DNA of 56,469 nt from an uncultured Alphaproteobacteria bacterium (lineage in GTDB: Bacteria; Pseudomonadota; Alphaproteobacteria; Rhodobacterales; Rhodobacteraceae): positions 1-56,469 of the forward strand of contig CACBRT010000005.1 of NCBI GenBank assembly GCA_902541695.1, in the 5' to 3' direction. A program made the position numbers and the translations under genes. This document shows positions 32,277 to 36,060 of the stretch, one piece after another. Position 1 is the stretch's first letter, and each line of letters opens with the position of its first letter. Below the pieces are notes generated by a model, which was not told where the DNA came from, did not search any database, and was given only the letters and a program-made list of their open reading frames with translations.

Positions 32277-33475
32277 TTATTTTATAAGAGAAACAAATTC
32301 ATTAATTCTTTTGCAAGCAATTTGAAGATCTGTCTCTGATTTAGCATAACATAATCTGAAAAAAACCACTACACCCAAAAGCAGTACCAGGAACAACTGA
32401 AATACCAAAATATTCTATAAGATATTTACAAAAATCCACGTCGTTATGAATTATTTTATTTTTAAAAATTTTTCCTAAATAACATTCACAATTTATAAAA
32501 TGATAAAAAGCGCCCATTGGTTTAATATTGAAATCTGGAAAGCTTTTTTTTAAAATATTGAAAGTCAAATCTCTTCTTTGACGATATTTTTCATTCCAAT
32601 CATCTAAAAATTTCATGTCACCAGTTAATGCAGCTAAAGCAGCAGCTTGACTTACAGATGATGCATTAGTCGTTGATTGACTTTGCAATTTTATCATTGC
32701 TTTAATTAGCGAAAGATTACCAGCTGCATAACCTAAACGCCAACCTGTCATAGCATAGGCCTTTGACAAACCATTTATGATCAAAATTCTATCAATTAAA
32801 TCTGGCGCGACTTCAGCTAAAGTAAAAAAATTTTTCATTACCATATATAATTTTACTATAAATATCATCACAAATGATGTTTACATTAGTGTGTTTACGG
32901 AGAATAAATGCCAGGTCATGTAATTCTTTTTTCGAATACACTGATCCAGTAGGATTTCCTGGAGAATTTAAAACTAACCATAAGGTTTTTTTATTAATAT
33001 GTTTTTCTAATAATTTTGAACTTATTTTAAAATCATTTGATTTAGTACAATTTACTAATATTGGTTTACCACCAGCAAAATTAACAATCTGCGGGTAGCT
33101 CACCCAATATGGAGTTGGAATAATAACTTCATCCTCAGGATCAATTGAAGACATGAGTGCATTAAATATTAATTGTTTACCTCCATTACCCACCACAATT
33201 TGATCTTCATGATAAATAAGTTGATGCTCATTTTTTAAATATTTTTTAATTACACTTCTGAGTTCTTGGGTCCCTGCAACATTGGTATACTTAGTTTCTC
33301 CTCTTTTCATAGCTTTATAAGAGGCTTCAATAATATGATCAGGTGTATTAAAATAAGGTTCACCTTCTCCAAGTTGAATTACATCTTTTCCAGAAGAAAT
33401 TAATTCTCTGGCTTTTTGTCCCAAAATCACGGTACTTGATGGTTCAATATCAATTATTTTTTTACTTAATTTCAT
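32277..33475 (-). pseudogene. Class I PLP aminotransferase (aspartate aminotransferase-like) with two +1 frameshifts
   Basis: Combined, the frames encode about 398 residues of a fold-type-I aminotransferase. LGEGEPYFNTPDHI lies near residue 35, PTPYWVSYPQIV near 120, SPGNPTGSVYS near 170, the PLP lysine in LSKAYAMTGWRLGYAAG near 240, and SVVPGTAFGCSG near the end. The first break is a run of 7 T (on the coding strand, near 32825), which turns KFFTLAEVAPD into a stop. The second is another 7-T run near 32362, after which the true end FFRLCYAKSETD...EFVSLIK is out of frame. With 6 T at each, the gene reads through to a TAA at 32277-32279. It follows the ThDP enzyme gene by 16 bases. The substrate is unknown. 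Confidence 0.8.
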
Positions 33476-35361: not shown

Positions 35362-36060
35362 ATGAAATATGAATCCGATACACCTCTGGACTCGTACTCC
35401 TTAGCAGCAATGGCAAGAACTGAAGACATTCTTAGTTTTTTGGTAGAAGATCTTAATATTATTGGTTCTAAAGAAACGTACAAAAATATTCTTTATGGAG
35501 TTAGGTTAATAGTAGAAGGAAAAAATAGAAGGCTATCTGACTTTTCAGAAATTATTGATGAAGATGAGGAAGATCAAAGTATTAATAAAAAAAATAAATC
35601 TGATGATTATTTTATAATAAATATTTTCCGCGAAAATTTAATTAATAATATAATTATTATAATTAAACAGCATGGTTTTAAACAAATAAAAAGGATAGAA
35701 AATTCTACTCAAATCCTTATAAAAATACCTGCGCCAACACAAAATCAATTAAATGAATTCGCTGGAGAGACTAAAAGAATTGAAAGATCTGCAATATCAA
35801 GGATAGCAAGAATTAAAAGTGATGCTATACAAAGAATTAAAGCAGCTTTGGAAAGAGAATATATTGAACCTCACGTAGCAGTACCAGCTAAAGCTCACTT
35901 AGAAAATATTCAGCAATCTGCTGTGTCTGAAATCAGGTTGATTGGACTTAAAAAGAGAAAAACTTTACTTGGAAAATTTTTTAGTTATACAGATGAAGAA
36001 GAAAAAAAATTAGGGAAAAAGCTTGAAAAATCTCCCCATAATAATTTATTCTCAAATTAG
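35362..36060 (+). CDS. Unassigned protein with a ribosome-recycling-factor-like C-terminal region
   Basis: The 232-residue protein has no family I can name outright. From about residue 82 its text tracks ribosome recycling factor (RRF). IINIFRENLINNIIIIIKQ corresponds to the RRF strand-helix LxINVFDxxxxxxxExAI, QILIKIPAPTQNQ to the RRF IRxPLPPLTEER, and RSAISRIARIKSDAIQRIKA to the RRF long-helix pattern with its regularly spaced arginines. The following LENIQQSAVSEIRLIGLKKR fits RRF helix 3. The first 80 residues do not show the RRF helix 1 with RTGRA, and include an acidic stretch (DEDEEDQ). I chose ATG 35362 over TTG 35359. It is followed by an FMN-protein gene on the same strand. A role at the ribosome is inference only. 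Confidence 0.55.
   Translation: MKYESDTPLDSYSLAAMARTEDILSFLVEDLNIIGSKETYKNILYGVRLIVEGKNRRLSDFSEIIDEDEEDQSINKKNKSDDYFIINIFRENLINNIIIIIKQHGFKQIKRIENSTQILIKIPAPTQNQLNEFAGETKRIERSAISRIARIKSDAIQRIKAALEREYIEPHVAVPAKAHLENIQQSAVSEIRLIGLKKRKTLLGKFFSYTDEEEKKLGKKLEKSPHNNLFSN

Follow-up and report, generated by a model that had tools for sequence, protein, structure and literature searches.

Does the ribosome recycling factor (RRF)-like protein encoded in the window, i.e., in the whole stretch of 56,469 nucleotides analysed here, descend from RRF, over how much of its length, and is the ribosome still its target? The gene in question (35362..36060, forward strand, ATG start, stop codon included) encodes a protein of 232 amino acids, hereafter protein A, with orthologues of 64–87% identity in eight public genome contigs. 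Few proteins of bacterial translation are as constrained as RRF. A relative of RRF that works away from the ribosome is not known to us, and the literature searched did not yield one.

The likeness to RRF that had been noticed from about residue 80 of A holds. The Pfam RRF family (PF01765) matches residues 79–203 of A at profile positions 41–164 with an E-value of 3.8e-7 and 30.5 bits, just above the curated cut-off of 29.7 bits, compared with 0.064 for the next-best Pfam family; a relative fused to a BLUF domain scores 32.8 bits (above the cut-off), and a paralogue, protein B, 28.6 bits (just below it). According to TIGR00496, the equivalog model of true RRFs, A reaches 14.5 bits, far below the cut-off of 149.1 bits, and this low score is what speaks for a chance similarity of helices between unrelated proteins, a caveat already attached to the earlier note. 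A search with A as a single sequence among solved structures gave no match, and hence the relation to RRF is one that becomes detectable via profiles.

A profile–profile comparison had been proposed in the earlier note. A family profile constructed from 13 divergent members, with zero canonical RRFs included, was compared with all PDB chains; the first 20 matches were RRFs, the best being 1is1 (E-value 1e-14), with profile positions 15–193 aligned to 1is1 residues 8–183, a range that takes in helix 1 and the first part of domain II. The hhalign comparison of the family with 40-odd canonical RRFs yielded a probability of 98.9 and an E-value of 2.4e-16 over 189 columns. In the Pfam scan, RRF was matched by all 13 members (best E-value 6.3e-12), and any other Pfam family by at most two of them; B matches the Pfam RRF profile from its position 1, and the BLUF-fused relative, from position 6, while the N-terminal 65 residues of A taken alone yield a non-significant RRF match (E-value 0.11). 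Applied to a phylum-wide sample, the 13-member profile picks frr-sized genes, with RTGR or RSGR in those that were re-examined; family members score at least 98 bits and lack RTGR, whereas canonical RRFs score at most 72 bits and have RTGR or RSGR. Taking together the profile alignments, the Pfam matches of all 13 members, and the phylum-wide result, A belongs to the RRF family and has both RRF domains, and its homology to RRF over these domains and nearly the full length is, as judged from these comparisons, near certain. Chance similarity is thus extremely improbable, the PDB and hhalign results in particular ruling against it, and the view of A as a second, divergent RRF-family protein stands. 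The structure model of A, predicted from an alignment whose rows were A orthologues only, is poor (pLDDT 50), its top Foldseek matches being RRFs at non-significant E-values of 0.07 or worse.

The layout of A can be followed from these alignments. Helix 1 of the RRF three-helix domain is assigned to amino acids 11–30 (35392..35451, forward strand, as all features below), where the family profile aligns to RRF from residue 8 onward, the poor model has a helix, and the columns are conserved in the family; it opens with the family motif D/N-S-Y-S (S11, Y12, S13 in A). The position of the RRF motif RTGRA is occupied by GSKET (amino acids 35–39, 35464..35478), and in the column comparison, the family does not retain R28, G30, or R31. 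An acidic and polar insert at approximately amino acids 65–80 (35554..35601) falls, according to the alignments, in a domain II loop around residue 60 of Escherichia coli RRF; its length varies among A orthologues, and most other family members lack it. Both the poor model and the profile alignments place a long helix at amino acids 127–165 (35740..35856), corresponding to the helix after the P-x-P-T turn of RRF, and the last long helix at amino acids 170–206 (35869..35979), corresponding to the final RRF helix. Lys152 (35815..35817) lies at the column of RRF Arg132. Canonical RRFs stop at about position 194 of the 220 profile positions, and amino acids 207–232 of A (35980..36057) form a C-terminal extension past the RRF end. 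Of the first 80 residues, it had been said that they lack the RRF helix and RTGRA and carry an acidic stretch instead: the absence of RTGRA is correct and the acidic stretch is real, but the latter is a loop insert, and helix 1 is not missing. Hence the N-terminus has diverged and is not a replacement, and the suggested different make-up of domains I and II is not supported by the alignment of profile positions 15–193 to RRF residues 8–183.

While the fold is shared, the RRF signature is not. Out of 48 near-invariant residues of canonical RRFs, only five persist in half or more of the 31 family members; the family has no RTGR and does not retain R28, R31, R129, or R133. At the columns of RRF Arg129, Arg132, and Arg133, A carries A, K, and S, respectively. 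The Arg132 column is occupied by Lys in 29 out of 31 family members and by Arg in every canonical RRF aligned; R132 is the residue mutated in the PDB entry 1ise, according to the entry title. The family has conserved positions of its own, namely, S11, Y12, S13, R56, D60, P123, K152, E166, I168, and G204 in the window numbering (the conserved-column output numbers A one higher, since the ORF there begins at an upstream TTG). At the level of aligned residues, the family has lost nearly all ribosome-binding residues of RRF. The pN/pS ratios are 0.11–0.26 for A orthologues and 0.05–0.10 for B orthologues; by this measure the RRF-like family is under purifying selection, and its members are evidently functional, the selection acting on features other than the known RRF contacts. 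The maximum-likelihood tree separates the family from frr with support 100/100, and in this phylogeny the family is monophyletic and distinct from frr.

The second member of the family comes from the genome of the window itself (G000; 70% complete, 95 contigs), in which another weak RRF match identifies B, a protein of 212 amino acids on contig 17 (L002), approximately 33% identical to A. Within the genus, at least one of A and B is present in ten out of 12 genomes. In a congener that is 97% complete (G090), A and B coexist with a canonical frr of 186 amino acids adjacent to pyrH and tsf (L096), so the search for a normal frr in this neighborhood, also advised in the earlier note, was successful there. 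G000 has no frr, and its pyrH is missing as well, with only a weak partial match elsewhere; therefore, the absence of frr looks like an assembly gap. Loss of the canonical frr in this organism was considered and rejected, since pyrH is missing from G000 too and G090 has the normal cluster. The A gene of G090 (L097 4744-5459, C4) has a frameshift and stop codons in the assembly, and is intact in the other relatives sampled with full coverage.

A adjoins unrelated genes and is not next to pyrH/tsf. Its neighbors are acetolactate-synthase-like, PNPOx/CREG-like, and endopeptidase-like genes, an arrangement kept in G090. Two overlapping ORFs of the window, 32341-32871 and 32813-33475 (region 32341-33475, reverse strand), together make up an aminotransferase gene whose counterpart in G090 is a single ORF of 411 amino acids (L097 1471-2706), indicating a frameshift or an assembly error. 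No flagellar gene was found near A anywhere in the 56-kb window, and A orthologues likewise have no flagellar neighbors.

The family is found in marine Alphaproteobacteria, in few families, and often as two copies. The RRF model gave an frr-type match in 97 out of 98 other Rhodobacteraceae genera sampled, and a second RRF-type protein of the size of A or B in none of the 98; the more sensitive A/B profile added one further genus of the host family with the RRF-like family (G033). A weak RRF match of 27.4 bits inside an 855-aa frame of another Rhodobacteraceae genus (G046:C57:143654-143995) may be due to chance or represent a distant RRF-like domain. In the class sample of 385 genomes, the family is present in nine, that is, in G000 and in members of host families f9, f19, and f109. 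Two copies each are found in G390, which we take to be the SAR116 isolate Puniceispirillum marinum IMCC1322, in which case f109 would be that SAR116 family, and in three genomes of the f9 genus g176. Phage or plasmid origin was rejected, as no relative was found in IMG/VR viral contigs or in phage or plasmid records. Searches for RRF paralogues or RRF-like proteins in connection with flagella or Alphaproteobacteria, and for flagella of SAR116 and HIMB59, retrieved no description of the family; coverage of this literature was partial, and hence this absence is weak evidence of novelty.

Several members of the family reside in flagellar loci. In three f9 genomes, the gene order is motA–motB–(one unknown gene)–RRF-like–PDZ-like protein–TM coiled-coil protein–...–flhB–fliR–fliQ–fliP, and in two genomes of the f109 genus g445, the RRF-like gene occupies the same motA–motB/flhB position with the same neighbors. 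Pfam supports MotA and MotB in the f9 locus, and FlhB and MotB in the g445 locus. Seven other carriers have the same conserved locus but keep their RRF-like genes elsewhere; no remnant of the family was found in their motB–PDZ gap. In the motA–motB/flhB locus of this flagellar type (L087, L126, L146-L152), the PDZ-like membrane protein and the TM coiled-coil protein are conserved and have no clear Pfam assignment. One of the two copies in G390 is a fusion, in which the RRF-like part is followed by a complete BLUF domain (E-values 7.5e-8 for RRF and 2.9e-24 for BLUF), and the fusion gene lies downstream of flhA–flhF–fleN–fliA–flgF. In G591, a family copy is found near fliE, a sigma-54 activator, and a fliS-like gene. 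G000 carries the flagellar cluster of the carriers on contig 34; B and most f109 copies have no flagellar neighbor. Genes for proteins with cyclic-nucleotide-binding domains occur near family members in four lineages. Examples are L145 2567-3922 (G328), which is directly downstream of the RRF-like gene on the same strand, L128 4028-4360, and L140 2980-3423; in G000, such a gene lies 5.3 kb from B. Their recurrence hints at a possible part in the same pathway.

Co-occurrence with FlhA points in the same direction. FlhA is present in 16 out of 19 carriers and in all eight carriers that are at least 90% complete; in the class sample, it is present in nine out of nine carriers and in 221 out of 385 genomes overall, counts that ignore shared ancestry. 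The 28 well-assembled f109 genomes comprise 15 with both the family and FlhA, two with the family only, five with FlhA only, and six with neither, i.e., FlhA is present in 15 out of 17 carriers and five out of 11 non-carriers (one-sided Fisher test, p = 0.022, relatedness ignored). Given the five FlhA genomes without the family and the two family genomes without FlhA, the link is not strict. The FlhA tree covers 13 carriers from four host families, three f109 non-carriers, and 20 other alphaproteobacterial FlhA, and leaves aside further low-scoring FlhA in the class; in it, the carriers and the f109 non-carriers form one clade (SH-aLRT 100), separated from the 20 others by a stem 1.66 changes per site long. 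On this phylogenetic evidence, the family is likely tied to one distinct flagellar type of several alphaproteobacterial families.

We put at about even the chance that A and B are cytoplasmic, RRF-shaped regulators of the carriers' flagellum, belonging to a family that descended from RRF and is devoid of its ribosome-contact signature. Under this mechanism, the RRF-descended family to which the divergent paralogues A and B belong would serve as an accessory of one distinct flagellar system, acting perhaps at the stator (MotA/MotB) or at the FlhB export gate. Some members could be gated by blue light, as the BLUF fusion suggests, and perhaps by cyclic nucleotides; A itself may serve the flagellum as well, and the ribosome would no longer be the target. 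More generally, the conservation and context data indicate that the RRF fold has probably been re-used for motility control rather than translation. In the full scenario, a duplicated RRF lost its ribosomal function and became, as a pair, a sensory or regulatory part of a distinct flagellar motor that ocean bacteria share horizontally, in one case wired directly to a blue-light receptor; this scenario is more tentative, falling slightly short of an even chance.

The flagellar link might also be hitch-hiking, the family having a general signaling role in marine Alphaproteobacteria and merely sharing hosts and some loci with the flagellum. Most copies, A included, lie away from flagellar genes, and the presence of the family among flagellated f109 genomes is patchy; still, the position relative to motAB and flhB is nearly identical in two host families, the BLUF fusion lies beside another flagellar cluster, and the family is restricted to one FlhA clade, which makes this explanation fairly unlikely. 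We consider it unlikely, and slightly more so, that A still acts on ribosomes, binding them in an altered way as an additional factor for recycling, rescue, or hibernation. Such action would fit the full-length homology to RRF and the basic residue retained at the Arg132 column, but 43 out of 48 signature residues are lost, the arginines R28, R31, R129, and R133 among those not kept, the well-assembled G090 has a canonical frr, and both distribution and synteny track the flagellar type, not the ribosome. For the role on stalled or hibernating ribosomes envisaged in the earlier note, in particular, we found nothing in favor; the neighborhoods, the BLUF fusion, and the distribution point to flagella.

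RRF descent and the flagellar link would be united if A were a flagellum-specific translation regulator that binds ribosomes or flagellar mRNAs and tunes the synthesis of flagellin or motor proteins. Flagellin is under translational control in Alphaproteobacteria, FlbT and FlaF of Caulobacter providing a precedent. Against this, the ribosome-binding residues of RRF are lost and the neighbors of the family are motor, export-gate, and signaling genes, not flagellin genes, so that we regard such regulation as quite improbable.

The proposed control of the flagellum by RRF-shaped proteins can be compared with known systems. With bacterial RRF (frr; PF01765, TIGR00496; structures 1is1, 1ek8), the family of A shares helix 1, the order of strands and helices in domain II, the P-x-P-T/S turn, and the two long helices; it differs in having no RTGRA and few signature residues, in the replacement of Arg132 by Lys, in its own conserved set and C-terminal extension, and in being often present in two copies per genome besides frr. 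The likeness to BLUF photoreceptors (PF04940) is limited to one member, the G390 fusion, and A has no BLUF domain; to our knowledge, an RRF-like partner domain has not been described in any BLUF protein, and the literature on BLUF and Puniceispirillum contained no report of such a pairing. The role proposed for A, a cytoplasmic, signal-dependent modulator of the motor, would be analogous to that of flagellar regulators acting on the stator or rotor, such as the PilZ protein YcgR, to which A has no sequence or fold relation, the likeness being one of proposed function only. If the proposal is true, the family, being monophyletic, stripped of the ribosome signature, and associated with a particular flagellum, would clearly exemplify the re-use of a translation factor fold. 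It would also offer a handle on the control of swimming in abundant, hard-to-grow marine bacteria, and thanks to the BLUF fusion, the idea that light is relayed to the motor can be tested directly in a cultured relative.

Two further observations concern gene neighborhoods. In G613, an ion-channel-like gene (L150 4747-6132), followed by a degenerate cyclic-nucleotide-binding-like protein, lies near rpoN and motAB. A family of small secreted proteins with no Pfam match is encoded beside RRF-like genes in three f109 genera (L084 6683-7144, L131 6051-6500, L136 1957-2370, and L137 6193-6630).
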